A stretch of 32,084 nt of DNA from Omnitrophica WOR_2 bacterium GWF2_43_52 (GTDB lineage Bacteria; Omnitrophota; Gorgyraeia; Gygaellales; UBA12090): positions 1 through 32,084 of the forward strand of contig MHGF01000024.1 in NCBI GenBank assembly GCA_001805445.1, read 5' to 3'. The translations under genes and the position numbers were made by a program. This document shows positions 2,178 through 32,084 of this stretch, in pieces (position 1 is the first letter of the stretch; every line of letters begins with the position of its first letter). The notes beneath the pieces are model-generated. The model saw nothing but the letters and a program-made list of their open reading frames with translations. It ran no database searches and was not told the DNA's origin.

Positions 2178-4073
2178 GTGTGTAAGTGTGTAAGTGTAAA
2201 GTATAAAGTGAAGAGGAGGAAACTAAGAATAGTATTTGTTTACGGTGGCTTTCTACTTTCTACTGCCTACTTTCTACTTTCTACTGCTCTATGGGCACAG
2301 GAAATAACGGCTGTGCCTGAAGCAGTTCAGGCAGCCCCAAGGGAAGTGTCCGCGGACGCGGTTTTTAGCCAGAAAATCACCCTGGACCTGCGCAATATTG
2401 ATATTATTGACGCGCTGAAATACCTGACCTCAAAAACGGGATTAAATATTATTTTTACCAAAAATGTTTCCGGCCGCGTGAGCCTCATGGTTGAAAATGT
2501 GCTGATTAAGGATGTCTTTGACGTTATGCTGCGTTCAAACGGCCTTGCCTATATGCAGCAAGGCAATATTTGCAATGTGATGACTGAGGTAGAATATAAG
2601 GCGTTTTACGGGAGTAATTTTTATGATATGCGCCAGGTAAAAATGATGCGGCTTAAGTATGCTATCCCCGAGCAGGCGTTTAGCCTCCTTGACGCCCTTA
2701 AAAGCGACATCGGCAGAGTATTGGTTGAGCCTGAATCAGGGAATGTGCTTATCATGGATACTCCGGAGCGGATACAGAGGATGCAAACTGCTCTGGAAGA
2801 ATTTGAAAAGGTGAATATGGTGCGGGTCTTTACCTTAAAATACGCGAAAGCCAAAGAAGTAGAGGATATCCTTAAGACCCAGTTAGATTCGAAAAAGGTT
2901 GGTTTCGTAAAAGCCGATGAACGTAATAACCAGCTTATCGTGCAAACGCTTTCCGAACGGATGCAGGAAATAGAGGCGTTGATACGAAGCCTGGATAAGC
3001 AGACAAAAGAAGTCATCATTGATACCAAGATTGTGAAGATTAAATTAACCGATCAGTTAGACAGCGGTTTTGAATGGGAAGGAATATTTCAGGTTGCCAA
3101 GAATCACGGGGTGAATTATCTAGGTTCAACGCCTTTTAGTGTTATTCAGAAATCTACGGATACCTGGCAGACAAGAGATAAGTTCCTGGAAACTACTATG
3201 AGCGGCGGAATTGGCGCGTATCCGTTTAGCGGAACAACCAGCGACTTTGCCTCAAGCACGAAAAAAGTGCTCGGGGAGGAGATGCACTATGGGATAGTGC
3301 AGGATAAGCGAGATTTTGATATATTTTTTAAATATCTGCAAACCTTGGGGAAAACCCGGATTCTTTCCAATCCCAAGTTAGCGGTGGTAAATAATCAGGA
3401 GGCGAAGATTCATATCGGCGAACGCCAGGCATATACGACCTCGACCACAACCGCGGGCCAAACGACAAGCACTATTTCCGAAGAAGTTACCTTTGTCGAT
3501 GTCGGTATTCAGCTTGCGCTTACCGCGGTAATCAATGACGACGGATTTATCACGCTCAAAGTAAAGCCTGAGGTTTCTAGTGTTACCTCTTCTCTTACGA
3601 CGCCTACCGGCAATAAAATTCCTATTATCGATACCTCGTTAACTGAGACAACCGTGATGATGAAGGATAATACCACCCTTATTGTGGGCGGATTGCGTAA
3701 AGAGGAGAAGACAAGTTCTTCCGAGGGTGTGCCGTTCTTAAGTAAAATTCCTTTGATCGGGTTTATCTTCAGTTCAAAAACCGGCAAGACTGACAGGACG
3801 GAGCTTCTGGTGATGCTTACCCCGCATATTATTAGCGGCGATGAGCTTTCTACCGGCAATGAAAGGGCTTTCGGCGATAAGCCGGGCAAGGAGTATAGAG
3901 GATATGATACTATTGCCCCGCGCTATACAACAACGCCTCAAGAAGAGCAGCCTTTAGCACTGCAGGAGCTTCCAGCCGGCTCCGAAATAAAACCTTATCG
4001 TGATATTAAAGATGTGAGTGGCAGCGATGAAAAATTTGCGATAAAAGAGGAGAAACCCTATGAGTCTTTTTAA
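2178..4073 (+). CDS. Secretin family protein (GspD/PilQ-like outer-membrane channel)
   Basis: The 631-residue protein has a signal peptide (hydrophobic stretch ~18-39, ending ALWAQ). An STN/N0-type domain follows at ~60-130 (ITLDLRNIDIIDALKYLTSK), then two N1/N2-like ring domains at ~150-275 (DERNNQLIVQTLSERM). The secretin core spans ~390-560, including RILSNPKLAVVNNQEAKIHI, the Val-Gly-rich lip VDVGIQLALTAVI, and IPLIGFIFSS...ELLVMLTPHII at its end. Such proteins form outer-membrane channels for type II secretion or type IV pili; which one cannot be told, since no ATPase or pilin is in the window. GTG at 2178 is chosen because GGAGG sits 8 nt upstream inside the previous gene. GTG at 2208 would give a tidier signal peptide but has no clear ribosome site. 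The signal peptide is encoded by a tandem low-complexity repeat. Confidence 0.93.
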   Translation: MCKCVSVKYKVKRRKLRIVFVYGGFLLSTAYFLLSTALWAQEITAVPEAVQAAPREVSADAVFSQKITLDLRNIDIIDALKYLTSKTGLNIIFTKNVSGRVSLMVENVLIKDVFDVMLRSNGLAYMQQGNICNVMTEVEYKAFYGSNFYDMRQVKMMRLKYAIPEQAFSLLDALKSDIGRVLVEPESGNVLIMDTPERIQRMQTALEEFEKVNMVRVFTLKYAKAKEVEDILKTQLDSKKVGFVKADERNNQLIVQTLSERMQEIEALIRSLDKQTKEVIIDTKIVKIKLTDQLDSGFEWEGIFQVAKNHGVNYLGSTPFSVIQKSTDTWQTRDKFLETTMSGGIGAYPFSGTTSDFASSTKKVLGEEMHYGIVQDKRDFDIFFKYLQTLGKTRILSNPKLAVVNNQEAKIHIGERQAYTTSTTTAGQTTSTISEEVTFVDVGIQLALTAVINDDGFITLKVKPEVSSVTSSLTTPTGNKIPIIDTSLTETTVMMKDNTTLIVGGLRKEEKTSSSEGVPFLSKIPLIGFIFSSKTGKTDRTELLVMLTPHIISGDELSTGNERAFGDKPGKEYRGYDTIAPRYTTTPQEEQPLALQELPAGSEIKPYRDIKDVSGSDEKFAIKEEKPYESF

Positions 4074-5214
4074 GCAAAAAACAGGATGTCTTGCCCCGTC
4101 AGAGAAAGCTACCGACAAAGCCAGTGGTGGAAAAGATATAGCCGCTGACGGTGGTTTAATGCCACCGTCAGCGGGAACCGTTAGAGAACGAAGTTCTCTA
4201 ACGGGGTTTACCTTTCTTGTAGCCTTCGTATGCGTGATAGGCATAAACGCGATATACGATAAAGGCGTCAGAGCTGCGGGGGTATCCGAGAACGAAAATA
4301 CCGAAAGCCAGCCTATGGGCCAAGGTGGTCAGGAACTCAAAGATAAGTATGATGCGTTACAGAAGGATTTCCAGGCTCTTTCTATGGATCGCGATAATCT
4401 TATTAATCAAGCGAAGCTCTTGCTCAATGAAAAAAGTAAAGCCAGAGAGTTTGAAGATGCTTTGGCAAAGGAAAAAAGTGATAGGGCACTGGCGGTAAAA
4501 GAAAAGGAAGAAATTCAAGGCGTCCTTAAGGACTTAGAGGATAAGCATGCGGCACTCAAAGATGCTCAGGGAAAGCTGGAAGCCCAAAAACAGGAGTTGG
4601 AAGATGACCTTGCCAAGGAAAGGGATAAGAGCTGGGTAAAAAAGATAACCGATGAAAAAACAGCGTTACAGAAAGAAAATGGCGAGTTAAAGCTAACCCT
4701 CAAAGAAACACAGGCCGCTTTAGCCAAACTCAAAGAGCGCGGTACTCAGGCAGATAAGGCATTGGTAAAGGCAGAGGCGGAACTGGCGCAGCTGCGCGAC
4801 ACTACGGAAACCTTGACGAAGGATTATCAGGAGGCGGTAAAGAAAAACAAGCTTATAGAGCAGCGCGCCTTTGAGTCACCGAAAAAATTTGTAGAGCTCG
4901 CGCATCAGAATAAAACGCTGATAAAACAAACCGGTAATATGCACTATAATTTAGGGGTCTTTTATAGCAAGCAAAAGGAATATTCACGGGCAGTTTCAGA
5001 ATTTGAAGAAGCGGTGAAATTAAGGCCTGATGATGCCTATTCCCATTTTAATCTGGGGTATATTTACGCGGAGTATCTTGTTAACCGGCCAAAGGCCATA
5101 GAGCATTTTCGGCATTACCTAAGGCTTGCCAAAAAAGACGATAAGGATTTGGATTGGGTAAAAAAATATATCCTCACCTGGCAGGCGTGGGCTGGTAAGG
5201 AACCGATGGAATAA
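4060..5214 (+). CDS. Membrane-anchored coiled-coil protein with C-terminal TPRs
   Basis: The 384-residue protein starts at an ATG 14 bp inside the secretin gene, with AGAGGAGA upstream, so translation is probably coupled. Residues 1-47 are an odd hydrophilic N-terminus partly encoded by perfect DNA palindromes. A single membrane segment follows at ~48-64 (FTFLVAFVCVIGINAIY). Residues ~90-275 are charged coiled coil. Two TPR motifs lie near the C-terminus (HYNLGVFYSKQKEYSRAVSE and HFNLGYIYAEYLVNRPKAIE). The C-terminal module is closely similar to that of the gene ending at 2177, so the pair flanking the secretin are paralogs. The coiled coil and TPR would sit in the periplasm if the N-terminus stays inside. 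A role as partner or scaffold of the secretin is inference. Confidence 0.88.
   Translation: MSLFKQKTGCLAPSEKATDKASGGKDIAADGGLMPPSAGTVRERSSLTGFTFLVAFVCVIGINAIYDKGVRAAGVSENENTESQPMGQGGQELKDKYDALQKDFQALSMDRDNLINQAKLLLNEKSKAREFEDALAKEKSDRALAVKEKEEIQGVLKDLEDKHAALKDAQGKLEAQKQELEDDLAKERDKSWVKKITDEKTALQKENGELKLTLKETQAALAKLKERGTQADKALVKAEAELAQLRDTTETLTKDYQEAVKKNKLIEQRAFESPKKFVELAHQNKTLIKQTGNMHYNLGVFYSKQKEYSRAVSEFEEAVKLRPDDAYSHFNLGYIYAEYLVNRPKAIEHFRHYLRLAKKDDKDLDWVKKYILTWQAWAGKEPME
4094..4206 (+). repeat. REP-like palindromes inserted in coding sequence
   Basis: Three nested symmetries lie inside the start of the 4060 gene. CCGCTGACGGTGG (4142-4154) pairs exactly with CCACCGTCAGCGG (4162-4174). CCGTTAGAGAAC (4178-4189) pairs exactly with GTTCTCTAACGG (4193-4204). 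CCCCGTCAGAGAA (4094-4106) can also pair, with one wobble, with the final TTCTCTAACGGGG. The reading frame passes straight through, adding about 35 low-conservation residues before the membrane helix. This looks like a mobile palindromic element that was inserted in frame. Confidence 0.75.
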
Positions 5215-5527: not shown

Positions 5528-6022
5528 ATGAAAAAAAGACTGTGTATTGTTTTAACAATGGGTATGGTGATTATGTGTATCCCGTTTTCTCTGGCTGCGG
5601 AAAGAAATAAAAAGAAGCCGTCTTCCGTGTCAGCGACGGTTTCCTTCGAGCGCGCTAAGCAAGATGAAGAAACAAAAGCCAGCCAATTACTGAGGGCTGA
5701 GGAATGGGTGGTATATCTAAGCCGTCTTCCCGATGGACAAGACAAGCCGCAGATAGATATCCTTACTTTTTCCTCAGGGAACGTCTTTACTTCAAAGAAT
5801 CTCGCTAGCAAGGGGTATCGGAGCGCTGCTTATTCCCTTACTCCTGGTAACGATGGGACATCCGCGTGGGAGTCTCTCGGTGAGCATACTGACGGGAGCC
5901 TCGCTTTTTGGCATGGTGAGCTTAAGGGAAGGCTTATGCATGGGGTGGTGAGTATACAGCAGAAAAACGCTGCTACTGAAGATTTCTATTTTACTACTGA
6001 AGCCTCAGATATAAAAAGATAG
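5528..6022 (+). CDS. Small exported protein, paralog A of an unnamed beta-rich domain
   Basis: This 164-residue protein has a signal peptide (KKRLCIVLTMGMVIMCIPFS, then LAA). A lysine-rich linker leads to a ~105-residue domain with the pattern EEWVVYLS..., D-I-LTF, G-x-VFTSKNL, Y-SLT, W-E, a GELKGRLMHG-type motif and T-EDFYFTT. The same pattern recurs in the protein at 25507-26043 and in the C-terminus of the RAYT fusion at 24130-25302. The repeated tryptophans and alternating hydrophobics suggest a small beta barrel or sandwich. I know no named function. The start has GAAAGGGG about 9 nt upstream. It has no N-X-S/T sequon, unlike the giant exported protein downstream. Confidence 0.85.
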   Translation: MKKRLCIVLTMGMVIMCIPFSLAAERNKKKPSSVSATVSFERAKQDEETKASQLLRAEEWVVYLSRLPDGQDKPQIDILTFSSGNVFTSKNLASKGYRSAAYSLTPGNDGTSAWESLGEHTDGSLAFWHGELKGRLMHGVVSIQQKNAATEDFYFTTEASDIKR

Positions 6023-6070: not shown

Positions 6071-8632
6071 ATGAAAAAAGAAAAGGTGTTTTTTATCGCG
6101 GCCATAGGATTTGTTCTCAGCGTCAATATTTATTTTCGCGCGTTTCCCATTACTTTCCCACAGCTCAAAACCCAGGCTTCGTCAATCGTAAAACAAATTG
6201 TTCAACAGCAGGCAACGGCTGAAGTTCAGAAAAGGTTTCCCCAGTTTTATTATTCGGCAAAAGATGCCATCGTACAATCAGAGATAAAGCAATATTATAA
6301 ATATAACAAGGCAAATATCCGCAAGCAAATCGGCGATATCTATAAGAATCTAAAGAATAGATACCAGGATGATGGAGGGCAAACCTACCTTATGGAATTA
6401 GATTGCTGGCATTGGGCGCGGTACGTTGAGAATGTCCTTAAATTCGGCCATCCAGGGGATGCGGTTATTGATGGAAAACAATGGGATATGTTGATGATTG
6501 CGCCAAAAGGCGCTTTCTTGAGTTGGGGGCAATTACTCTTTTATTTCTCAGCTTTTCTTTATAAGGTGTTTTCTCTTTTTACCGCTGTGCCGCTTTTTAC
6601 CTTTCTTTTTTATCTGCCATTGTTTTTCACCTGTCTTTTTATTATTGCGCTTTTTCTGTTTTCTTTCAAATACGGAGGATACATCGGAGCTACAGTGAGT
6701 TGTTTATTTGTTGGGCTAGCGCCTGTATTTCTCCCCCGTAGTTGCGCGGGGTGGTTTGATATGGATATCTTTAATTTGTTGTTTCCTGTCCTTATTGTAT
6801 GGGCATATCTTATTTCCGTGGAAAAGGTAATGCTTAGGCGAAAGGTTCAGTGGCTTGTTATTTCAGCGTTTTTTGTAGGGTTATTCGCCTTTACGTCATG
6901 GGCTTTTTGGTGGTATATCGTAGTAGTTATTCTGGGGTGCGAATTATTTTTCTGGGGATGTTCGTTCATAGAGTATTGTTATTTTAGAGCCCGATTAAGA
7001 GGTTCTTCTGGCGGCGATGATGGCCCTCTGGAACGGGCTGAAACTTCCGCTATGAAATTATCGTGTGCCCACCGGAATGCTTTAGCGGCAGTGCTCTTTG
7101 TAGCGTTCTCTTTTTCATGGGTGTTTCTTATTGCTGGCGTTGAACCGTTTACCGTATTATATAATGATATAAAAAGAGCGGTAGTTTTGAATAAACCTTT
7201 AATGGCCTCTATATGGCCTAACGTATTCTCTACGGTTGGCGAGTTGAGAAAGATGAACCTGAGAGAAATAGGTAATACTATCGCCCCTGCATGGATTGTT
7301 GGATTATCACTGCTTTGCATGGCCGTAACAGCGCTGCGCGCGTTCTTATCCAAGTCGTTTTCAAATACTAAGCGTTCGGCTATTGTCATTTTTATTATCT
7401 GGTATTTATTGATGTTTTTTGCCACCATGAGAGGCGTGCGCTTTGCTGTTTTTCTTCTGGTGCCTTTTGCGGTATGCCTCGGGTGGGGTATTCATGATAC
7501 CATGGCATATTTCAGAAACAGAAAAAGCGGCCTTGGCGTGGGTATAGTTATGGGCGGGGCATTGGTATTATGTGTATCATTGGCGAATAAGGGTTACGCG
7601 GTTGCAAAGAGCATCTATCCACTCATGGATGATACCTGGTATCAGGTGTTGAATCTTGCACAGGAAAAAACCCCGCAGGAAACAATCATAAATTCCTGGT
7701 GGGATTTTGGCGATTGGTTTAAGGTAGTTGCCGGGCGCCGGGTTATTTTTGACGGCCAGAGCCAGCATTTGCCTCAGGCATATTGGATGGCTAAGGCTTT
7801 GCTTTCTCAGGATGAAAATCAGGCAGTCGCAATTCTTAGAATGTTGAATAACGCAGGGAATAAGGCATTTGAGCTTTTAGACCAGCATATGAAAGACCCT
7901 CTGCGGTCAGCGCTGTTATTAGAGCATGTGCTTACCTTGCCGCAGGAAAAAGCAGGCGAGGTGTTGAAGAAAATTCTTTCCCAAAAAGCGGCAGATGAGG
8001 CAATAAAGATACTTTTTTCTCCCGCGGCAAAGGCAGTCTTTGTCGTTGATCATACGATGCCATTTAAGATGCCGGCAATTTCTTATTTAGGAAATTGGAG
8101 TTTCCCAAAAGTGTATATCGCGCAAAATTTTAGCCGGATAGAGAAGAATCAAATTGTGGAGTACCTTAAAAACTTAAGCAAGAATGAAATACAGATAGAA
8201 CAATTTTATCAGGAAGCTTTTCTTATAGAAAACAAGGATTTAGATGAATGGCTCTCTCAGAGGGTGCAGTTTTATAGCGCGTTGACAAACGGCAGGCTTA
8301 AAGATGATAGCGCATATTTTGAAAATGGTTTCGTGTATAATGTCAAAGATGGCAGCGTGCATTCAAATAACGGGCAAATTCCAAGAAGCGCGTTTGTTTT
8401 TCGCCAGGATGATCTTGTCGAGGTGCCATATTCTAATCCTAATGTGCCATTTTCTATTCTTATTTATGAGGTAAAGGGCGAATATAAATCTATTCTTTTA
8501 GATACCCAGTTAGGCCGTAGTTTATTTGTGAGGCTTTATTTCTTAGGAGGAAGGGGATTAAAGCATTTTACCCCGTTAATCGATGCCGAAGAAGGCAATA
8601 ACTATATCAGGTTTTTTAACATACTATGGTGA
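6071..8632 (+). CDS. STT3-family oligosaccharyltransferase (PglB/AglB type)
   Basis: This 853-residue membrane protein has about a dozen predicted helices in its first ~510 residues and a large soluble C-terminal domain. The active-site signatures of the family are present in order: an acidic first external loop (ELDCWHWAR, D111); GWFDMD with D230 and D232, matching the second metal-binding DxD; STVGE (T388-E391), matching the TIxE/SVSE element of external loop 5; and SWWDFGDW (W543-W549), matching the WWDYG sequon-binding motif. STT3 enzymes transfer a polyprenyl-linked glycan to Asn in N-X-S/T on exported proteins. It heads a run of glycosyltransferases, which fits a protein N-glycosylation locus. 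The length and C-terminal domain are closer to archaeal AglB than to Campylobacter PglB. Start ATG 6071 follows GTGAGAG. The assignment is firm; its glycan and substrates are unknown. Confidence 0.93.
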   Translation: MKKEKVFFIAAIGFVLSVNIYFRAFPITFPQLKTQASSIVKQIVQQQATAEVQKRFPQFYYSAKDAIVQSEIKQYYKYNKANIRKQIGDIYKNLKNRYQDDGGQTYLMELDCWHWARYVENVLKFGHPGDAVIDGKQWDMLMIAPKGAFLSWGQLLFYFSAFLYKVFSLFTAVPLFTFLFYLPLFFTCLFIIALFLFSFKYGGYIGATVSCLFVGLAPVFLPRSCAGWFDMDIFNLLFPVLIVWAYLISVEKVMLRRKVQWLVISAFFVGLFAFTSWAFWWYIVVVILGCELFFWGCSFIEYCYFRARLRGSSGGDDGPLERAETSAMKLSCAHRNALAAVLFVAFSFSWVFLIAGVEPFTVLYNDIKRAVVLNKPLMASIWPNVFSTVGELRKMNLREIGNTIAPAWIVGLSLLCMAVTALRAFLSKSFSNTKRSAIVIFIIWYLLMFFATMRGVRFAVFLLVPFAVCLGWGIHDTMAYFRNRKSGLGVGIVMGGALVLCVSLANKGYAVAKSIYPLMDDTWYQVLNLAQEKTPQETIINSWWDFGDWFKVVAGRRVIFDGQSQHLPQAYWMAKALLSQDENQAVAILRMLNNAGNKAFELLDQHMKDPLRSALLLEHVLTLPQEKAGEVLKKILSQKAADEAIKILFSPAAKAVFVVDHTMPFKMPAISYLGNWSFPKVYIAQNFSRIEKNQIVEYLKNLSKNEIQIEQFYQEAFLIENKDLDEWLSQRVQFYSALTNGRLKDDSAYFENGFVYNVKDGSVHSNNGQIPRSAFVFRQDDLVEVPYSNPNVPFSILIYEVKGEYKSILLDTQLGRSLFVRLYFLGGRGLKHFTPLIDAEEGNNYIRFFNILW

Positions 8633-22657: not shown

Positions 22658-23662
22658 ATGTATAAGAAAATCGTAGTTATTGCTGTGCTCTTTGCTATGT
22701 TTTCTTTGGGAATAGCGCAAGGCCAAGAAGCAAATATTCCGGTTGCAAATAACAAAGTATCCGAAGACTTGAAAAAGGATGAGCCAAAGTATATAGGTAG
22801 TTTTTTTGATGTCCAGGTTACTGACGCGAATTACTTTTTTATAAGCAGCGTAGTTGATGTGTTTGGGATAAAAGGCGCGCCCAAGCCTTCCACAGCAGAA
22901 GAACGTGAAAAATATATATGGGACCAATTATTACTTTCTTATGAAGCCTTTCGCAGGAATGTCGCGGTGAGCCAGGAAGAGATAGATGTGGAGGTCCGAA
23001 AAATCCTTACTGAAGATAAAGTTACATTTGATTGGAAGAAAGATGCGCAGGCGTATGAAAAATGGGTAAAAGAAAGGACCAATGAGCCGGTTATCCTTTT
23101 TGAAAATCAGCTCAGGCATTTAGTGCAAGTGCAAAAATTGAATGAGCAGATCTTGACGTCTCTTCAGCCAAAAGTATCAGAACATGAGGCATTTCAGGAG
23201 TTTTTGAATGAACATAATTCTTTGAGTGTGGAATTGGTTGAATTTAAAAATAAAAAAGATGCACTGACGTTTTACGCAAAGGTAAAATCAAATTTGAATT
23301 TTTGGGATGAAGAAAAGAATAAAAAAATAAAAGAATTCAGGCGCCCTGGATTTGTGTCTTTGGAGTTTCTTATGGATATCTGGAAATTCTCTAAAAAAGC
23401 TGTCTACCAGATGATGAAACAAAAAATAGGTGCTATCTCCCAGCCGTTTCCTATATATAAGGGTTATGGGGTGTGCAAAATTTTAGAGACGCGCCTAGCA
23501 AACGCCTCAGAGTTTAAGAAATTTAAAGACTCATATTATGGGCAAATCAGAACACGTAAAAAATATGAAGGCGTAGGCGTATGGTTTGGAAACTTAAAAA
23601 AGCAGGCAAATATAAAAATATATTCTAAGGATGAGTTATCCGCAAGGAAACAGCAGTCTTGA
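22658..23662 (+). CDS. SurA-like exported chaperone/peptidyl-prolyl isomerase-type protein
   Basis: The 334-residue protein begins with a signal peptide (YKKIVVIAVLFAMFSLGIAQ). Residues ~30-165 are helical and resemble SurA/PpiD N-terminal chaperone regions, with a DQLLLSYEAFRRNVAVSQEE segment. Residues ~175-290 look like a parvulin-type domain (VSEHEAFQEFLNEHN; KIGAISQPFPIYKGYGVCKI), followed by a C-terminal helix. The parvulin active-site histidines and cysteine are not obvious, so it may be chaperone-only. In-frame codons from 22514 run through the terminator, so ATG 22658, just before the signal peptide, is preferred. It may assist folding of exported proteins such as the giant protein downstream (inference). 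Confidence 0.75.
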   Translation: MYKKIVVIAVLFAMFSLGIAQGQEANIPVANNKVSEDLKKDEPKYIGSFFDVQVTDANYFFISSVVDVFGIKGAPKPSTAEEREKYIWDQLLLSYEAFRRNVAVSQEEIDVEVRKILTEDKVTFDWKKDAQAYEKWVKERTNEPVILFENQLRHLVQVQKLNEQILTSLQPKVSEHEAFQEFLNEHNSLSVELVEFKNKKDALTFYAKVKSNLNFWDEEKNKKIKEFRRPGFVSLEFLMDIWKFSKKAVYQMMKQKIGAISQPFPIYKGYGVCKILETRLANASEFKKFKDSYYGQIRTRKKYEGVGVWFGNLKKQANIKIYSKDELSARKQQS

Positions 23663-23687
23663 TATATTAGCTAAAATGTGTTATACT
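23659..23687 (+). promoter_or_regulatory. Sigma70-type promoter for the riboswitch transcript
   Basis: TTGATA (23659-23664) and TATACT (23682-23687) are separated by exactly 17 bp. The -35 box overlaps the stop codon of the SurA-like gene. Transcription would start near 23694, about 25 nt before the conserved GGCAAAC of the riboswitch aptamer. Confidence 0.65.
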
Positions 23688-23786
23688 TTAAATAGAAAAT
23701 TAGAGAATGGTTTCGAAAAGGCAAACTTCCGCCACAACACATGGCGGACGCGCCAAACAGTATGGCGTGCCGAGCAATCGGGGGGC

Positions 23787-23857
23787 GCCCGCCTGCCTCG
23801 GCATATAGCCGAGGGAAAGCGGGTCTGTACTGCTGGATGGATATCCGGCGGGCAGGC
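23787..23857. repeat. REP-like palindrome inserted in the riboswitch aptamer
   Basis: GCCTGCC (23791-23797) pairs with GGCAGGC (23851-23857), and CCCGCC (23788-23793) with GGCGGG (23847-23852). Inside is a perfect hairpin CTCGGC-ATATA-GCCGAG. The layout of GCCTGCC arms around a GC hairpin resembles the element at 5244-5286. It makes up most of the 106-nt insertion between GACGC and AAAGCC. Confidence 0.6.
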
Positions 23858-23918
23858 AAAGCCGTGCGTCCTAAGTTCTGGGATAGGCAGGTTACCGAAT
23901 AACTATGCTGAAGTTATA

Positions 23919-23949
23919 ATCCCAGATGCGGTTTGTCTGGGATTTTTTT
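23919..23949 (+). terminator. Rho-independent terminator (riboswitch expression platform)
   Basis: ATCCCAGA (23919-23926) and TCTGGGAT (23936-23943) form a perfect 8-bp stem followed by seven T. An identical TCTGGGAT lies upstream at 23877-23884 and can act as antiterminator. Confidence 0.8.
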
Positions 23950-23950
23950 G

Positions 23951-24129
23951 TAGTCTTGTTAAAAAGTGTCAGGCATATAGTAAAAAGTGCCAGGTACAAA
24001 ATAAAAACCAGACAATGCCTCTAAGAAAAAACGGTTTAAAGCGCCTTTACCCTGGAATTGGGGTTTATAACGCCTGTGGAGCAGGGGATGATGCACGCGC
24101 GCTACGCGCGTGTAATCGCGAGGTTAAGC
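23951..24129 (+). other. Leader between terminator and RAYT gene: short direct repeats and a hairpin
   Basis: TAAAAAGTGTCAGGCA (23960-23975) is repeated with two changes 21 bp later (23981-23996). The perfect hairpin CACGCGCG-CTA-CGCGCGTG (24094-24112) lies shortly before the RAYT start codon. Both resemble the boundary sequences that often accompany RAYT or IS200-like elements. No gene is supported here: an in-frame start at 24058 lacks a ribosome site and would add residues unlike the family. Confidence 0.5.
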
Positions 24130-25302
24130 ATGCCCAGGTTACCAAGGATTTATTTAGAAAAGGCGCTGTATTATATCACCACCAGGGGTGATAGCAGCCA
24201 GCATATTTTTAAAGAGGCGGAGGATTTTAAGGTATTTTTAGATTTAGTAAAAAAGTATAAAGAGCAGTATCAATTTAAATTATACGCCTATTGCCTGCTC
24301 CCAGAGCATTTTCACTTGTTGGTAGAATTACCTGACCAAAAAGAGGTGAAAAATAAGATGGGCCCACTCAGTAATATAATGCATGATCTAAATTCCTCCT
24401 ATACGAAATATTTTAACGCGAAATATCAAAGAAAAGGCCATCTTTTTCGCGAAAGGTATAAAGCCGCCTTAATCGAAAAAGAGCAGTATCTTTTAAAGCT
24501 TGCCTGTTATATTCACTTAAATCCCCTGAGGCTGAAGCTCTCAACCTCTGTAGGAGGCTATCCTTACAGCAGTTACAACGCTTACGTAAATCACGAAGGT
24601 ATCGCGAATTCTTATCTTGCTGATGAGAAAGAGGAGATTGCAAGGCTTTTAGAAGGAAAGAGTTACGCGGAATTGATGGATGAAGTTGTCAAAGAGCCTG
24701 ATTGTACGCGCCTACGCCAGAGTTTAAAAAAAGGTATCGTTGGTTCAAGTGCTTTTAAGGAGCAGATAAAGCAGGCGCTCGCCTTACAGATGAAAGAAGG
24801 CGCGATAGAAAAACCTGGCCGTAGAAAAAAAATAGGAATTATTTTTTTCATAGTATTGGTAAGCGGCCTGGGAATATTCTTTACTGTTAAAATGGGCACA
24901 GAGCAAAAAAAAGAAACAAAAGGCGCGCTTTCTGCGTTCCCGCATAAATTCCCGGCGCAGGTCAAAGAATTATTGCGAGAACTGGAAAATACCGAATGGC
25001 AGATTCGCCTTGTTTCTTTGCCGGGAGGCAAGGTCCAGGATGATAGCATCCGTTTTGAAGAAGGGAAATTCTATTCGCGTATTTTTTCGGCAAAGCATTA
25101 TCCGGCATCGGAATATTTTTTGCTTATTGAAGATGACCAGAAAATAATATGGGAGTCAGAACAGCCTGGCGAGGGCGCGGTAGCTTCCTGGCGGGGTGAA
25201 ATCAGAGAAGGCGAAATGGAGGGGGGCCTGCGCCTGCGGTATGCTAACGCGACAACGCAGGATTTTTCTTTTGTAAGCGTGAGCAGTAAAAAAAGAAAAT
25301 AA
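24130..25302 (+). CDS. RAYT (Y1/HUH transposase) fused to a transmembrane helix and an exported beta-rich domain
   Basis: The 390-residue protein starts at ATG 24130, with GAGG 7-8 nt upstream and the typical RAYT opening MPRLPRIYLEKALYYITTRG. Residues 1-175 form the Y1 transposase domain, with the HUH motif H60-F-H62 (PEHFHLLVEL), candidate catalytic tyrosines Y91 and Y94 (SYTKYFN), GHLFRERYKA and CYIHLNPLRL. A KGIVGSSAFKEQIKQAL segment, usual at RAYT ends, follows. A basic stretch (GRRKK, ~230-234) leads into one membrane helix (~235-256). The last ~105 residues (TEWQIRL, D-SIRF, W-E, RGEIREGEMEGG, TTQDFSF) match the exported domain of the genes at 5528 and 25507. Positive-inside topology puts the transposase in the cytoplasm and the extra domain outside. 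RAYTs cut and process REP palindromes; REP-like elements occur in this window. Whether it still transposes or has become a regulator is unknown. Confidence 0.88.
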   Translation: MPRLPRIYLEKALYYITTRGDSSQHIFKEAEDFKVFLDLVKKYKEQYQFKLYAYCLLPEHFHLLVELPDQKEVKNKMGPLSNIMHDLNSSYTKYFNAKYQRKGHLFRERYKAALIEKEQYLLKLACYIHLNPLRLKLSTSVGGYPYSSYNAYVNHEGIANSYLADEKEEIARLLEGKSYAELMDEVVKEPDCTRLRQSLKKGIVGSSAFKEQIKQALALQMKEGAIEKPGRRKKIGIIFFIVLVSGLGIFFTVKMGTEQKKETKGALSAFPHKFPAQVKELLRELENTEWQIRLVSLPGGKVQDDSIRFEEGKFYSRIFSAKHYPASEYFLLIEDDQKIIWESEQPGEGAVASWRGEIREGEMEGGLRLRYANATTQDFSFVSVSSKKRK

Positions 25303-25506: not shown

Positions 25507-26043
25507 ATGAAGAAAAATATCGTTAAGGTGTGGGCATGCGTTTTTTCCGGTCTGTGTGGGATGTTGTTTTTAAACAGTTTTCTGTTTGCCCAAAACCAGG
25601 CTGGTGTGGGAAAAAACGAGAATGCCATCGCGCAACAGCGTAAGACGGCAGAGGAGAAAGCACGGCGGATACTAAAAGCAAAAGAATGGCTGGTGTATGT
25701 AACTTCGGAAAGCGGCAAAGGCAAGGCCGAAGCTGACGTAATTACCTTTACCGAAGAAGGCAAAGTTTCTTCAAAGAACCTGTTTGCCCAGGGTTATGGT
25801 GATTCCAATTTCAGGCTGACGGCTCAAGATGACGGCAGCGCGGTATGGGAAACAATGAAAGTGGATAAGGATAAGAACCTTGCTTTTTTAAGGGGGGAGC
25901 TTCGGGGAAATGAAATGACAGGAAGTATTTTTATGAAATCGGCAGCCGGAGTGGGCTCTACCTATTACTACGGAACTACCCAAGTGCAGGCTCCAGCATC
26001 ATCGGATAAGCCTCCTGTAAAAAAAGGCAAGAAGAAAAGATAA
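25507..26043 (+). CDS. Small exported protein, paralog B of the unnamed beta-rich domain
   Basis: The 178-residue protein has a strong ribosome site (GAGGAGGAG) and a signal peptide ending near LFAQN. The domain (~60-160) has KEWLVYV, DVITF, GKVSSKNLF, FRLTAQDDGS, VWET, RGELRGNEMTG and YYYGTT, aligning along its length with paralog A and with the RAYT C-terminus. A lysine-rich tail (PPVKKGKKKR) follows. It has no N-X-S/T sequon. It begins a co-directional run with gaps of at most 15 bp reaching the giant gene. Function unknown. Confidence 0.85.
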   Translation: MKKNIVKVWACVFSGLCGMLFLNSFLFAQNQAGVGKNENAIAQQRKTAEEKARRILKAKEWLVYVTSESGKGKAEADVITFTEEGKVSSKNLFAQGYGDSNFRLTAQDDGSAVWETMKVDKDKNLAFLRGELRGNEMTGSIFMKSAAGVGSTYYYGTTQVQAPASSDKPPVKKGKKKR

Positions 26044-26058
26044 GAGGTGATTGGACAA

Positions 26059-26547
26059 ATGATTACACAGATAAAAGAATACCTGTTTAACGTCAGCGGC
26101 CAGAAACTACGCAGATTGATAATTTTTATTATGGCCCTAACTGCCTTTGCTGTTTTTGGAAGAGGGTTAATCGCTTACGCGCAAAATGATACGCCAAAAA
26201 AGACAGGGAGAATCATGAAAGGCGTTAGCGGAGAAGTTAGTGCTATCAGTAAGGATTTTATCGCGGTTGTCTATAGGCGCGATGAAGCAAAAGGCTCAGA
26301 GGAGGAAATTGCCTTACCTGTTGCCAAGGATGTTATTGTTGAGCATAAGAAGAGTATCGCTGAGATTGGAGCAGGAGATTTGGTGGATGTTGAGCTTGAA
26401 GAGTATACGGAGGAAACTCCTGAAGGCCCTAAGTCAAAGCGGGAGGCAAAGGTGATTCGGTTTGTTAGCGCGGCTCCAAAGCAAGCCAATTCTGTTGTGT
26501 TAGACAGCGGCACTCAAAACAGTGGTGATGAGCCAGAGGAAGAATGA
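26059..26547 (+). CDS. Small exported or membrane-anchored protein, OB-like (DUF5666-type) candidate
   Basis: The 162-residue protein starts at ATG 26059 with GAGGTGA 8 nt upstream. A 19-residue polar N-terminus leads into a hydrophobic stretch (RRLIIFIMALTAFAVFG) ending AYAQ, which could be cleaved. The rest is ~75 residues of beta-like sequence (GVSGEVSAISKDFIAVVYRR; VAKDVIVEHKKSIAEIGAGD; LVDVELEE; REAKVIRFV) in the pattern of small OB-fold secreted domains, and an acidic tail. Its stop overlaps the next start as ATGA. Function unknown. Confidence 0.72.
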   Translation: MITQIKEYLFNVSGQKLRRLIIFIMALTAFAVFGRGLIAYAQNDTPKKTGRIMKGVSGEVSAISKDFIAVVYRRDEAKGSEEEIALPVAKDVIVEHKKSIAEIGAGDLVDVELEEYTEETPEGPKSKREAKVIRFVSAAPKQANSVVLDSGTQNSGDEPEEE

Positions 26548-26891
26548 AAATAGAAAAGAGATTATTCATAGATGCTGATGGTGTGATTCAGCGCTTTAGG
26601 CAAGGCTTGAAGGCTAAGCGTATGGATAAAAAGATAGAGAAAATATATTTATTTGGTTCTCGGACAAAGGGCACGGAAAGGCCGGATTCTGACTATGACG
26701 TGCTCATTGTTGCTCCTTCCCCTAACCAGGAATTCAGGAGTAATATTTATGATATCGTGGTAGATATACTTCTTACTACAGGCAGAGAGGTATCGTTAAA
26801 GATTTTCAAAACCGAGGAATTTAAGCGCCTTAAAGGAATGCAGACACCTTTTATGCAAAATGTCTTGAGGGAGGGAATAAAAATTGGATAA
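26544..26891 (+). CDS. MNT-type minimal nucleotidyltransferase (antitoxin-like)
   Basis: The 115-residue protein has the polymerase-beta-type nucleotidyltransferase signature: YLFGSRTKG (G38-S39) followed by SDYDVLIV (D50, D52) and IVVDILLTT. These residues bind metal and nucleotide. With the HEPN gene that overlaps it by 8 bp, it forms the common MNT/HEPN pair. In studied pairs, such as MntA-HepT, the MNT protein neutralises the HEPN ribonuclease by modifying it with AMP. ATGA overlap with the upstream gene ties it to this operon. Confidence 0.87.
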   Translation: MKIEKRLFIDADGVIQRFRQGLKAKRMDKKIEKIYLFGSRTKGTERPDSDYDVLIVAPSPNQEFRSNIYDIVVDILLTTGREVSLKIFKTEEFKRLKGMQTPFMQNVLREGIKIG

Positions 26892-27285
26892 GAAGACTTT
26901 GGATTTATTAAAAGGGTATCTGGCAAAGGCGGAAGAGAAACTGCGCGTGGCGAAAACATTGCTAAAGAATGAAGGCTATGATGATTGCGTTTCCCGCGCC
27001 TATTACTGCGCTTTTCATGCTGCGCAGGCCCTGCTTCTTACAGAAGGATTTTCAGCAAATACGCATCAAGGGGTCCTCAATTTCTTTGGGCTTAACTTTG
27101 TAAAGACAGGAAGATTTGATAGGAAGTTTGGAAAGATTTTGTCTACCTTAAAGGATGAGAGGGAGAATGGCGATTATGAGATATATTCTGCCATTGATGA
27201 GGAGGTTGCTAAGGTAGCGGTCAAAGAAGCAGAGGACTTTTTGAAAGAGGCAAGACATTATTTGAATAAATATTTAAAAGGATAG
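26884..27285 (+). CDS. HEPN-domain protein (partner of the MNT gene)
   Basis: The 133-residue all-helical protein starts at TTG 26884 with GAGGGAA upstream, overlapping the MNT gene. It has the HEPN hallmark SRAYYCAFHAAQALL (R38, Y40, Y41) and a later RENGDYE segment, as in the PF05168 type. The canonical HEPN ribonuclease motif R-x4-6-H is not evident, so ribonuclease activity is uncertain. Probable toxin or regulatory half of a two-gene module, placed directly before the giant gene. Confidence 0.82.
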   Translation: MDKKTLDLLKGYLAKAEEKLRVAKTLLKNEGYDDCVSRAYYCAFHAAQALLLTEGFSANTHQGVLNFFGLNFVKTGRFDRKFGKILSTLKDERENGDYEIYSAIDEEVAKVAVKEAEDFLKEARHYLNKYLKG

Positions 27286-27288
27286 TTG

Positions 27289-30200
27289 ATGAAAACTCAC
27301 TGGCGCAGGATAATTCTGGGAGTGCTTACCTTGGGGATGGCGGGAGCCTTTTTTGCCTCATCTTCCTATGCCGTGCAGATAAAGAGGGTGCAGTCAGGGG
27401 CCGCTAATTATGACACTGATGATGTGGTATATTCCGCCGCTCTTCAATATCCGGTAAATCAATCAAAGTCAGTCATTCTTTTATATCCGACCGGCGATAC
27501 GACCAATACCCGTGACCAAAACTGGTTTTTTACCGGACAGTTTGAGGATGATAGCACGATTGCCATAGACCGCGGCGGCGGAACTTCTCCGGCAAGTGTA
27601 TTATGGCAGGTCATTGAATTTGAAGATGGGGTCAGGGTTCAGCGCGGCATCACCAGTATGACCTCAACCACTAAAACCAAGAATATCACTTTGCCGGTAA
27701 CCCTGGATGGCTCTGGAGAAAAGGCTGTCCCTATTGTAACCACCAGGGCGGCTTTCACCACTATTACCCAGACCCATGAAATGTTTCTTCTGCCTAGTTT
27801 TACCAATAATACCACAATGTTTCTGGAGCGGCTTGATGCCACAGGAACAAAGGCCACGCAGATAGTCTGGCAGGTAATTGAGTTCTTGGATGACGCCACT
27901 GTCCAGACTGGCACAGTCTCTTTGCCGGTGCCTGGCGGTACTACCAATAACCAAACTGTAAATGCCACCGTATCTGAAGCGGCGAATCCACTCTTGTTTA
28001 CCTATTTTACGGGCAATGTTGATATTAATGGACAGGATGCCCGGCTTTACACGCAGGCTGAAATGTTAAATTCAACTACCGTCAGCTTTAATCGGCTGTA
28101 TGCCACAAATACCGCTAATACGGATGTAGCTGTCAGATATTACTTGGTCAACCTTACTGACCCGGTAAGTTATGTCCAGAGCGGCTGGAACCAGTGGCTA
28201 ACCACCGCTGCCACCAAAACGGTTGGCGCTTCAACTGATGCCAGCCCCATCCAGGTTACTATTACTGGCCATGGCTTTGTTAGCGGCGATCTGATAAATA
28301 TCGGAGGCCATGGTACAAATCTCGCGGCTAACGGAAATTGGTTTATTACTGTTATTGACGCCAATACTATTACTCTGAATAATTCTTCTGGCTCTGGAGC
28401 AGGAGCTGGTAGCGGAGGCGTGGCCATAAAAGCGCAGTATTCCTCCATTAATTCCATAGCTCCGGAAAGGACTATGGTAATTAAGACTACCAAAGCAGAT
28501 AGCGGAACCACCAATGCCGCTTACGGCGACGATCTTTCTGTGGGGGCAGGGATATTTAATGCTACTAATGTTTTTACTATACGTTCCGCGCGGACAACAG
28601 CAATCAACAGCAACAGCACTTATTCGGCTATTGAGTTTTGTCCTTTAACTTTAAAACTTCCTAACGGCGGCAACGCCAGCTCAGGATACAGCGACCGGGA
28701 GGTCTGGCGTGTGGGGCAGAGTAAGAATATTACCTGGAAGTATTCTAATGATGTGGCTGCCAATAATATAAGTATTCTCCTTAATTTAAATAACGATACC
28801 AATATCTCAAACTATAGCCTGATAATCAATAACAGCATTAACACCTCTTATAATAACGGCACTTACACCTGGACTATTCCTGAAGCTATCAGCGGGACTA
28901 ACCTACTTTCAGCAAACGCGAGGATTGCTATTCAGGATGATGTCCTTTCCGTGCGCGACTATGATTATTCCAATAACCGCTTTGAGATCAAAGGCGATAT
29001 AAATGTAACCGCCCCTAGCGGCGGAGAAAACTGGAATGTAGGAGATACCCGTCAGATTAATTGGACCCGTTACGGCAATATGAGCGCGATCAATTTTAAT
29101 ATAACCCTTTCTACTGACGGCGGCGGAAACTGGAGCGTGTTGAATAATTCGGTAACTCAGGTGGAGGTTGACCCTGATGGAGATGGCCTGTGTATCTATA
29201 ACTGGACTATTGGTGATAATGACCCTACCGGCACCAGTATGAAAGCTAATATTACCTGGATGGGAGACCCCGGTAACGTAACCAACACCTCAACCAGCAC
29301 CTTTAACGTCCGGGCAAAGATAAATATTACTGAGCCTACCAATATCACCGAATGGCTGGCGCAGGACAACGGCACGATTAACTGGACCAAAAACGGTACC
29401 TGGAGCGGCAATAATGTGAGCATCTATTATAGGATAGGCGCGGGCAGTGAAAATCTTATTAGTACCGAAAATGCCTCTAACGGCACCTATAGCTGGGTGA
29501 ATATTTCAACCGGGGCAATCAGCAGTAATAATACCTATATTGTTATCCGTTCCGGAGCTGACCCTGATAATGTCTATAATACCTCCCCGGCCTTTACGGT
29601 GCATCCGTATATAGAAGTGACTTACCCTAATACGGCGGACGTAGTCTGGAATGTTTCGGATTCGCCGAACATTACCTGGAATGTTACCGGAAGCCTGAGC
29701 ACGGTGGATGTCTGGTATAACAATACTACAGGCTGGACAAAAGTCGGTAACGACGTCAATGCCACCGGCGGCAACTGGACGTGGACTAATATTCCTGCCG
29801 CGTATGTAAGTGAAACTGTTACTATTCGCGTGTCAAAGCATACGACCGGCGCTACGCCTATTGTACCCTACGATGATGCTAATTATGTCATTCCTATACG
29901 GGGAAAACTCACGGTAACCAAACCTGCCAGCGGCGATATCCTTAGGGTGGGCAGTGATGAAAGTATTAACTGGACTGCCAGCGGTTTTGGCGGCGCGGAC
30001 TTAGTAAGAATTAAATTCGCCAAATTCGGGAATTTTGCTGATGCCGGCAACACTACAACTATTGCCGAGAATGAAACCGCGACGAATCAGACATTCTTAT
30101 GGACAGGCCTGCCTAATAATATAACAACCTCCGGAAAGGTGCGCCTTGAGTGGCAGACAAATACTACCGTGTTTAATGATTCCGACCCATTTTCCATTAA

Positions 30201-32084
30201 GGGGAAGCTTAACCTCACCTCTCCTAACAGCGGTGTCTACTATATAAACGGCACAATGGCTATCAACTGGACGCCCACAGGGACTGTTGGCGCGACACGC
30301 CTCAATTATACCGCGGACGGGGGTCTTGATGGATATAATCATAGTATTTTAAATAGTACTGACGGCTATGATTTTAATGAAAGCGGCCCTTATACGTGGA
30401 CTATTCCTGATGCCACCGATATCAGTAAACAGATACGGGTAAAGGTATATGCCAAGAATGACGCCGAGAATGTGACCTCCAATTCAACGGCTAATGTTAC
30501 GATACGCGGGATTTTAAACCTTACCTCGCCTGACGGCGGAGAGGTGTGGCAGGTCAATACTACAAAAAATATCAATTGGACCCGCCAGGGTTCTAAAATG
30601 GGCAATATTACTCTTTTGTATTCCACGGATAACGGCACAAACTACAACGGGACCATAAACGCCAGCATAAGCTCAACCGGTGTCCCCGCGGATACCTATA
30701 GATACACCTGGACTGTAGACAATGTTATGTCCGGTAACCCGACCCAAAAATTTGACCAGATGAAGATAAAAGTTGCCGTTGTTGGAGATGAAGATAATAC
30801 TTCAGATAGTTCTGCCAGCAATTTTACCATTGTCCCTAAAATTCAGGTAACCAGGCCGGATGCTATAAACAATACTTTTTATGTTGATGAAAACCAGAGT
30901 GTTCTATGGGGTGCAAGCGGTGATTTGGATAAGGTTAATCTCTATCGTTCATCTGACGGCGGCGGCAACTGGACACTTATTACTACAGAAGGCTCAGAAG
31001 TAAATGACGGGAATTATACCTGGAATGTGCCTAATACCATCAGCAATACCTCTAAGGTAAAGGTGTGCAGCTGGTATTATAATGAGACTCCTTCTGAGGC
31101 CTGCGGTGAGTCGGTTAATTTCAGTGTTAAGCAGAAAATAGATATAGACAATCCTTTGGCAGGCATAACCGCGGTAGCCGGCCAGGTGTATCAGATACGC
31201 TGGACGCCCCATGGCACGTTAGGGACGGTAAATGTTTCCTATGCCAATTATTCAAGCGGATGGAACTTTACCGAGATAACCAATAATACCAGCGCTACTT
31301 CCTTTAACTGGACAGTGCCTGATGATATGGGTACTAATACCAGCAAAATTAAGATAATCTCTGAGGTCTATCCTGAAATTAATAATACGTCTTCGGCATT
31401 TTCCATTAGGGGATATATCAATCTTACTCAGCCTGCTACAGGAGCCAATATCAGCGCCAAGTCAACAGACACTCCCATACGCTGGACATACAATGGAAGC
31501 CTGATAGGAGATGTGAGCGTTGAGTATTCTTTAGATGGCGGATTAAACTGGACACTTATTGAGAATACATCGGTTACCAGCGGCTCTTCCTATATATGGC
31601 CTCAAGTTCCAGTAACAACCAGCGATAATAACGCGAAAGTACGAGTATATGATGTTAATAATAGCGCGACCGTAAGTACCTCCGGGTTATTTAACATTGT
31701 CTCCAGCCTTAACCTGACCAGCTTTAACGGTGGAGAGAACGCGCCGGTAGGCTCCGGCTTAGGGGGAGTTAATCCGCAGTATATTACCTGGAAACAGTCC
31801 GCGGCAACTTTGGTGAATGTATCTTATTCGCTGGATAACGGGGGTAACTGGACGCTGATAGAACAGGTCGCTCCGGCAACAGAATCAATGACCACGAACT
31901 GGACTATCGCCAATAATACCCAGGCTTCAAACAGCGCGAAGATAAAGATACATGATTTCAATAATCCCGCTGTATATGATATTTCTACTGCCACCTTTAA
32001 CGTAATCGCGGTCTTTAACGTAACCGATCCTGAGGACGGTAATATCACCTACGCGCAGGAGTATTATAATGTAACCTGGACGAA
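27289..32084 (+). CDS. Giant exported Ig-like repeat protein, extremely rich in N-glycosylation sequons (3' end outside window)
   Basis: The frame is open from ATG 27289 to the window end (1598 codons, no stop), 3 bp after the HEPN gene with AAGGA upstream. A signal peptide (IILGVLTLGMAGAFFASSSY, then AVQ) is followed by three related ~100-residue modules (LWQVIEFEDG, VWQVIEFLDD, VRYYLVNLTD). Residues ~320-375 resemble the FCCH-type beta motif (TITGHGF...GDLINIGGHG). From ~455 on there are at least twelve ~100-residue repeats opening LNLTSP[ND]GGEVW...NI[TN]W and closing YTWTIP or similar, like Kre9/KNH-type Ig-like repeats. Repeat starts include 28999, 29323, 29614, 29908, 30211, 30514, 30841, 31138, 31420, 31711 and 32026. 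Hand count gives about 105 N-X-S/T sequons, one per 15 residues overall and one per 12 in the repeats. A surface adhesin or shell protein is likely. Confidence 0.9.
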   Translation, partial: MKTHWRRIILGVLTLGMAGAFFASSSYAVQIKRVQSGAANYDTDDVVYSAALQYPVNQSKSVILLYPTGDTTNTRDQNWFFTGQFEDDSTIAIDRGGGTSPASVLWQVIEFEDGVRVQRGITSMTSTTKTKNITLPVTLDGSGEKAVPIVTTRAAFTTITQTHEMFLLPSFTNNTTMFLERLDATGTKATQIVWQVIEFLDDATVQTGTVSLPVPGGTTNNQTVNATVSEAANPLLFTYFTGNVDINGQDARLYTQAEMLNSTTVSFNRLYATNTANTDVAVRYYLVNLTDPVSYVQSGWNQWLTTAATKTVGASTDASPIQVTITGHGFVSGDLINIGGHGTNLAANGNWFITVIDANTITLNNSSGSGAGAGSGGVAIKAQYSSINSIAPERTMVIKTTKADSGTTNAAYGDDLSVGAGIFNATNVFTIRSARTTAINSNSTYSAIEFCPLTLKLPNGGNASSGYSDREVWRVGQSKNITWKYSNDVAANNISILLNLNNDTNISNYSLIINNSINTSYNNGTYTWTIPEAISGTNLLSANARIAIQDDVLSVRDYDYSNNRFEIKGDINVTAPSGGENWNVGDTRQINWTRYGNMSAINFNITLSTDGGGNWSVLNNSVTQVEVDPDGDGLCIYNWTIGDNDPTGTSMKANITWMGDPGNVTNTSTSTFNVRAKINITEPTNITEWLAQDNGTINWTKNGTWSGNNVSIYYRIGAGSENLISTENASNGTYSWVNISTGAISSNNTYIVIRSGADPDNVYNTSPAFTVHPYIEVTYPNTADVVWNVSDSPNITWNVTGSLSTVDVWYNNTTGWTKVGNDVNATGGNWTWTNIPAAYVSETVTIRVSKHTTGATPIVPYDDANYVIPIRGKLTVTKPASGDILRVGSDESINWTASGFGGADLVRIKFAKFGNFADAGNTTTIAENETATNQTFLWTGLPNNITTSGKVRLEWQTNTTVFNDSDPFSIKGKLNLTSPNSGVYYINGTMAINWTPTGTVGATRLNYTADGGLDGYNHSILNSTDGYDFNESGPYTWTIPDATDISKQIRVKVYAKNDAENVTSNSTANVTIRGILNLTSPDGGEVWQVNTTKNINWTRQGSKMGNITLLYSTDNGTNYNGTINASISSTGVPADTYRYTWTVDNVMSGNPTQKFDQMKIKVAVVGDEDNTSDSSASNFTIVPKIQVTRPDAINNTFYVDENQSVLWGASGDLDKVNLYRSSDGGGNWTLITTEGSEVNDGNYTWNVPNTISNTSKVKVCSWYYNETPSEACGESVNFSVKQKIDIDNPLAGITAVAGQVYQIRWTPHGTLGTVNVSYANYSSGWNFTEITNNTSATSFNWTVPDDMGTNTSKIKIISEVYPEINNTSSAFSIRGYINLTQPATGANISAKSTDTPIRWTYNGSLIGDVSVEYSLDGGLNWTLIENTSVTSGSSYIWPQVPVTTSDNNAKVRVYDVNNSATVSTSGLFNIVSSLNLTSFNGGENAPVGSGLGGVNPQYITWKQSAATLVNVSYSLDNGGNWTLIEQVAPATESMTTNWTIANNTQASNSAKIKIHDFNNPAVYDISTATFNVIAVFNVTDPEDGNITYAQEYYNVTWT

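Follow-up and report, generated by a model that had tools for sequence, protein, structure and literature searches.

Omnitrophota have probably turned a REP-associated tyrosine transposase (RAYT) into a membrane-anchored, DNA-binding protein, the gene for which heads a giant-protein operon behind a riboswitch. We put at about 55% the probability that this protein, TM-RAYT, is a domesticated transposase that would bind DNA from its place in the membrane and regulate or anchor the operon it belongs to. The sequence-only reading had raised the idea of a membrane-tethered and possibly domesticated regulator, and it gains support because the family is monophyletic, holds a conserved operon position, has lost part of its catalytic triad in 35 of 62 members and has a private upstream site. 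The riboswitch, the operator-like sites and the linkage to the giant protein are the features most informative on function.

The DNA analyzed here (the window) is the whole stretch of 32,084 nucleotides from Omnitrophica WOR_2 bacterium GWF2_43_52 (contig MHGF01000024.1). The gene, its parts and the secreted paralogs of its last domain are as follows.

24130..25302, forward strand: membrane-anchored RAYT (TM-RAYT), 390 aa (ORF translation, RAYT family models, AlphaFold2).
24130..24804, forward strand: predicted cytoplasmic RAYT domain (family models, Foldseek), with H60 at 24307, H62 at 24313 and Y127 at 24508.
24832..24888, forward strand: predicted transmembrane (TM) helix, approximately residues 235-253 (hydropathy, AlphaFold2).
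24955..25299, forward strand: predicted exported beta-barrel domain, residues 276-390 (own-genome search, structure model).
25507..26043, forward strand: secreted paralog of the beta domain (own-genome match, signal-peptide-like N-terminus).
5528..6022, forward strand: secreted paralog of the beta domain, adjoining secretin and coiled-coil/TPR genes (own-genome match, signal-peptide-like N-terminus).

The 390-aa frame is uninterrupted in the window translation. Its start was placed at 24130, where MPRLPRI opens the protein as it does in most family members, and the upstream TTG start of a longer ORF at 24058 was rejected in favor of this conserved family start. The first domain matched NCBIfam REP_Tyr_transpos (NF047646) over residues 5-147 (83 bits, cut-off 80) and Pfam Y1_Tnp over residues 25-129 (1.2e-10; 42 bits, cut-off 23), contains H60-F-H62 and Y127, and had as its best PDB match in Foldseek 4er8, the structure of a RAYT in complex with a REP hairpin (target TM-score 0.72). 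The sole strong hydrophobic segment of the tail begins at residue 235 (mean Kyte-Doolittle hydropathy 2.69 across a 19-residue span) and is preceded by the basic stretch GRRKK. AlphaFold2, run with 42 sequences, modelled the RAYT domain at pLDDT ~95, a helix at residues 237-251, a linker at residues 254-273 at pLDDT below 50, and the beta domain at pLDDT ~95 (95 when modelled by itself). The predicted topology is thus a single TM helix followed by an exported domain, the latter modelled as an eight-stranded beta-barrel. The sensor-like role that the earlier reading gave to the exported domain would fit this topology. Family models, hydropathy and AlphaFold2 therefore agree with the earlier description of a complete HUH/Y1 RAYT running unbroken into a TM helix and an extra domain.

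That the extra domain recurs as two secreted proteins of the window was likewise borne out by the own-genome search, in which the C-terminal domain matched 5546-6007 (5e-11) and 25624-25950 (4e-8), within the two proteins with signal-peptide-like N-termini listed above. Pfam and PDB sequence searches assigned the beta domain to no family, and Foldseek returned weak likenesses only (LolA, nitrobindin, bradavidin; none at E < 0.001), so no ligand is named for the barrel. At window positions 3-5214, a secretin gene is flanked by two long coiled-coil/TPR proteins, and similar secretin clusters lie near TM-RAYT in loci L049, L050 and L052-L056.

In searches among relatives, across the phylum and in named genome contigs, the RAYT-TM-domain architecture was found in 62 non-redundant proteins, 61 from Omnitrophota and one from a Ratteibacteria MAG. 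An alignment query succeeded in this search, and a protein-only search of the genome contigs with the C-terminal domain gave no match. The genomes, all from uncultured organisms and mostly MAGs, number more than 50 among those sampled and represent several classes and many independent assemblies. Every TM-RAYT whose gene covers that part has a strong hydrophobic segment at approximately residues 220-270. The tail is the barrel in most of them and a coiled coil in a sister group. In the tree, 43 TM-RAYTs and 45 ordinary RAYTs fell on either side of a branch with support 100/99; the tree does not itself place the root, and to call the TM-RAYTs one clade presumes a root among ordinary RAYTs. Recurrence together with the single branch indicates that the fusion is old and inherited, not an assembly accident. 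A trapped fusion or misassembly, which the sequence-only reading had considered, is excluded by the recurrence, and an assembly chimera or recent accidental fusion has next to no probability, being refuted by full-length homologs in those genomes and assemblies. One locus (L241, G160:C20) has a tandem pair of TM-RAYT genes, both with a c-di-GMP-I aptamer of their own ~130 nt upstream.

In relatives, the gene next after TM-RAYT usually encodes a small exported protein and often overlaps the TM-RAYT stop codon; next comes a giant secreted protein, with N-terminal sequences like AVQIKRVQTG. The counterparts in the window are these.

26047..26547, forward strand: small exported protein with the GEVSAISKDFIAVVY motif, usually directly after TM-RAYT in relatives (neighborhood comparison).
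27286..32082, forward strand: start of the giant secreted surface protein, a signal peptide followed by AVQIKRVQSG (ORF, relatives).

The small exported protein had no Pfam match. The giant protein of the window has at least 1599 aa, its frame being open at the contig end. In the window operon, TM-RAYT is separated from the giant gene by one of the secreted barrel paralogs and by an MNT/HEPN pair. The pair, an MNT nucleotidyltransferase and a HEPN gene, occupies 26544-27285, between the small exported and the giant proteins, and a similar pair is found in the same neighborhood of a relative (L050, 8016-8766). N-x-S/T sequons abound in the product of 27286-32082, and at 6071-8632 the window has a gene for an STT3/PglB-type oligosaccharyltransferase (Pfam STT3, 3e-28), accompanied by glycosyltransferase-like and radical-SAM-like genes; bacterial N-glycosylation of the giant protein is possible from these sequences. 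Giant ORFs are known from Omnitrophota, where the very long secreted proteins they encode are poorly understood and have been connected with attachment and predation (PMC10066038); the TM-RAYT operon resembles them in encoding a very long secreted protein in the same phylum, and that paper mentions neither riboswitches nor transposases nor c-di-GMP.

The leader of the window gene contains the following elements.

23659..23687, forward strand: sigma-70-like promoter TTGATA-17-TATACT, its second hexamer preceded by TG (10/12 matches).
23706..23905, forward strand: c-di-GMP-I riboswitch aptamer in two parts, with ~125 nt of additional hairpins between them (RF01051, own model).
23918..23951, forward strand: intrinsic terminator, AATCCCAGA...TCTGGGATTTTTTT (leader comparison, fold).
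23964..23976, forward strand: operator-like site 1, AAGTGTCAGGCAT (leader motif comparison).
23985..23997, forward strand: operator-like site 2, AAGTGCCAGGTAC, 21 bp from site 1 (leader motif comparison).

Rfam models detected a c-di-GMP-I or c-di-GMP-I-GGC aptamer upstream of the TM-RAYT gene in all 12 leaders first examined, the aptamers of relatives scoring up to 65.5 bits (RF01051) and 62.2 bits (RF03167), above threshold. Our own covariance model was built from those 12 leaders and showed compensatory changes at 10 of 19 pairs. A same-strand aptamer lies within 400 nt upstream of 57 of the 62 TM-RAYT genes, a count that includes the 12 model-building leaders, with 20 later-fetched loci as the test set; with our own model, no aptamer was found at 31 ordinary-RAYT loci. 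Another TM-RAYT gene (L082) has its aptamer 798 nt upstream, and an upstream aptamer is absent at four (L111, L115, L239 and L244). At L244 (G196:C78), the operon is rearranged, with a riboswitch 3' of the TM-RAYT gene and no operator-like site. Whole genomes gave 0-11 aptamer matches each, and 28 of 32 leaders have an intrinsic terminator after the aptamer. Strong riboswitches that lack a TM-RAYT gene in relatives were considered as hidden family members and rejected, as they precede other surface-type genes, e.g. pilin-like ones.

The aptamer in the window differs from RF01051 and RF03167 in its extra hairpins and its sub-threshold score (26.8 bits against RF01051, gathering score 35). Its 5' part includes GAAAAGGCAAAC near 23715-23726 and a GNAA-loop hairpin within 23706-23819, and its 3' part spans 23837-23905; our own model scored the 3' part at 38.0 bits and the 5' part (23706-23819) at a weak 14.9 bits. 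The split explains why a whole-window Rfam scan at E up to 0.1 missed the riboswitch; the short-range scan and our own model detected it. The extended form occurs at one further place in the genome, so the window aptamer is a variant and not simply damaged. This second split c-di-GMP-I-like aptamer (G000:C35:73390; L167, 1495-1685) also has large inserted hairpins and is 81% identical to the 5' part of the window aptamer over 68 nt. The notion that the extra hairpins are a multi-copy repeat was rejected, as the genome holds one partial copy, which is itself this split aptamer. Split aptamers with inserted hairpins possibly form a distinct architecture missed by Rfam models. The promoter-like sequence lies ~20 nt ahead of the riboswitch and is weak alone, since shuffles average 1.0 such site. 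Pairing is possible between the 5' arm of the terminator and the aptamer bases UUCUGGGAU, and a pairing of this kind occurs in the minimum-energy leader fold; this would make ligand binding favor termination (OFF sense), a prediction to which we give little weight.

Between the terminator and the start codon, most TM-RAYT leaders contain the near-palindrome AAGTGCCAGGCAC, commonly twice in the same orientation and commonly 20-90 nt before the start codon. With the threshold set at 11 of 13 positions matching the motif or a clade variant, 57 of 62 TM-RAYTs had a site within 400 nt. None of the 45 ordinary RAYTs had one, and among 310 shuffled leaders 7 did. Because the consensus motifs, three in number, come from these very leaders, the shuffles control for chance and the set is not motif-independent. 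Paired sites are spaced 20-23, 30-33, 43, 53 or 64 bp apart, multiples of ~10.5 bp. The concentration at a 10.5-bp period was R 0.79 (Rayleigh p ~6e-7) in a test on related sequences whose near relatives were collapsed into clades by hand and by eye. As read from these sequences, such phasing points to a protein that would bind along one face of duplex DNA. In several members with the coiled-coil tail, one site lies before the riboswitch and another before the start codon, 208-215 bp apart.

The sites are rare and nearly private to the gene. At one mismatch or fewer, the motif occurs 1-6 times per genome in 20 genomes, mostly at the TM-RAYT leader, and twice in the 2.47 Mb of the window's own genome; by the count of this upstream motif, there is no cognate REP population. 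Site variants track the protein clade (GTACCACGTAC and GTGCCACGCA with the coiled-coil tail, GTGCCAGGCAC with the barrel tail), and this may simply follow species phylogeny. Three clostridial ordinary RAYTs (L124, L125 and L129) have GGGACAGGCAC 5' of the gene and its reverse complement 3', and two others (L123 and L126) have an inverted GGGACAGGCAC pair on the 3' side. These repeats share the core CAGGCAC with the TM-RAYT leader sites. The common core suggests, short of proof, that the RAYT domain itself would recognize the sites; another regulator could own them.

Ordinary RAYTs act on single-stranded hairpins, and the TM-RAYT site (AAAGTG-CCAGG-CACTTT) could form a weak hairpin in single-stranded DNA or RNA. 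The RAYT domain might bind the leader RNA, not DNA, and fasten a very long mRNA, or the place where its translation begins, to the membrane beside the export machinery. Consistent with this idea, the sites fall within the transcribed leader at the short distances from the start codon given above, hairpin recognition is known for RAYTs and the cargo is a giant exported protein. We nevertheless consider it unlikely: the spacing tracks the DNA helical repeat, the upstream site of the coiled-coil-tail members precedes the aptamer and lies near or before the likely promoter, and the 3' arm is broken in many copies, which makes the hairpin impossible there.

All ordinary RAYTs with readable positions keep H-x-H and the tyrosine. 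The HUH/Tyr triad is complete in 27 of the 62 TM-RAYTs and partly lost in the other 35, with diverse replacements (ENY, QDY, EHF, REQ, HHH and GSF among them). The losses are scattered over many parts of the TM-RAYT clade, where the operon and riboswitch are unchanged. Five residues of the nucleic-acid face (S81, Y91, K93, G103 and R109) are invariant in all 62 proteins. This pattern fits a family that would have lost nuclease activity while still binding nucleic acids. With its catalytic triad intact, the window protein may still be an active nuclease; as for the earlier label of a DNA-processing enzyme, it may hold for this copy and is doubtful for the family as a whole.

These residues bear on two further explanations. 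TM-RAYT could still be active as a single-strand nuclease, cutting and rejoining DNA at the sites in its leader and perhaps serving as an on/off switch of the giant-protein operon, as would agree with the intact triads, the fold shared with a REP-bound RAYT and the near-palindromic sites in the leader. The loss of at least one catalytic residue across the clade under the same operon and riboswitch, together with the handful of sites per genome in place of a canonical REP population, makes this quite unlikely. Alternatively, TM-RAYT might be mainly an envelope component acting with the secretin, the secreted paralogs and the giant protein, its RAYT part being a vestigial cytoplasmic plug. Genes for secreted barrel paralogs and secretins are indeed often nearby; the RAYT domain is, however, the best conserved part of the protein, down to its invariant face residues, and the site and riboswitch are conserved together with it, so that we regard a vestigial domain as decidedly unlikely.

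For the preferred reading, a domesticated regulator or anchor, a mechanism can be proposed. c-di-GMP, or a related dinucleotide, would decide whether transcription passes the leader terminator. The RAYT domain, on the cytoplasmic face of the membrane, would bind both sites of its own leader as duplex DNA; this binding might repress or gate the operon while it is made, and might tether the locus to the membrane, the place where the giant protein would be translated and exported. The periplasmic barrel, or the coiled coil in the sister group, might report on export or on secreted partners and tune binding. The architecture, its recurrence, the catalytic decay, the riboswitch, the terminator, the sites and the operon are seen in the sequences themselves; TM-RAYT as the binder of the sites, duplex DNA as the form bound, repression or tethering as the effect, sensing by the barrel and the identity of the ligand are inferred. 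The full scheme, in which a phylum-wide domesticated transposase tethers the giant-protein locus to the envelope via phased leader sites, senses the export or envelope state outside and is gated by a cyclic-dinucleotide riboswitch, is offered tentatively, as possible and somewhat improbable.

RAYTs are present in many bacterial genomes, their domestication is suspected and their benefit to the host is unclear. TM-RAYT shares fold and sequence with RAYT/TnpAREP (TnpAY1 family; NF047646; 4er8), the window copy with HUH and Tyr included, and the sites near its gene, which contain CAGGCAC, are similar to the inverted repeats flanking clostridial RAYTs. Unlike them, it adds a TM helix and an exported domain, has lost the triad in more than half of its members (35/62), lacks, by the motif count, a REP population and holds a fixed place in a riboswitch-controlled operon. 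ToxR/CadC-type one-component membrane regulators combine a cytoplasmic nucleic-acid-binding domain, a single TM helix and a periplasmic domain. TM-RAYT shares this topology, as predicted, and differs in having a RAYT fold in place of the N-terminal winged helix and in standing behind a riboswitch; it would work like these regulators only and is not a member. The RAYT family classification (PMC6006769) describes soluble subclasses with extra domains, and a text search of that paper found neither 'transmembrane' nor 'Omnitroph'. Elsewhere, c-di-GMP signalling controls very large surface proteins, such as the large adhesins of Vibrio cholerae (PMC6890996); TM-RAYT control would differ in pairing a riboswitch with a transposase-derived membrane protein. 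Taken separately, RAYTs, riboswitches and membrane-bound one-component regulators are familiar; no paper joining a RAYT with a membrane anchor or a c-di-GMP riboswitch was found in the literature searched, which held no preprints and a minority of subscription journals.

The TM-RAYT family lets the host function of a RAYT be framed in concrete terms, since its place in the operon is fixed, its catalysis has decayed, a near-palindromic site has been retained and the protein has a membrane anchor. The family is also a first handle on how Omnitrophota may control their giant proteins, connecting these proteins to cyclic-dinucleotide signalling, and TM-RAYT is a testable candidate for giant-protein control in Omnitrophota cells.
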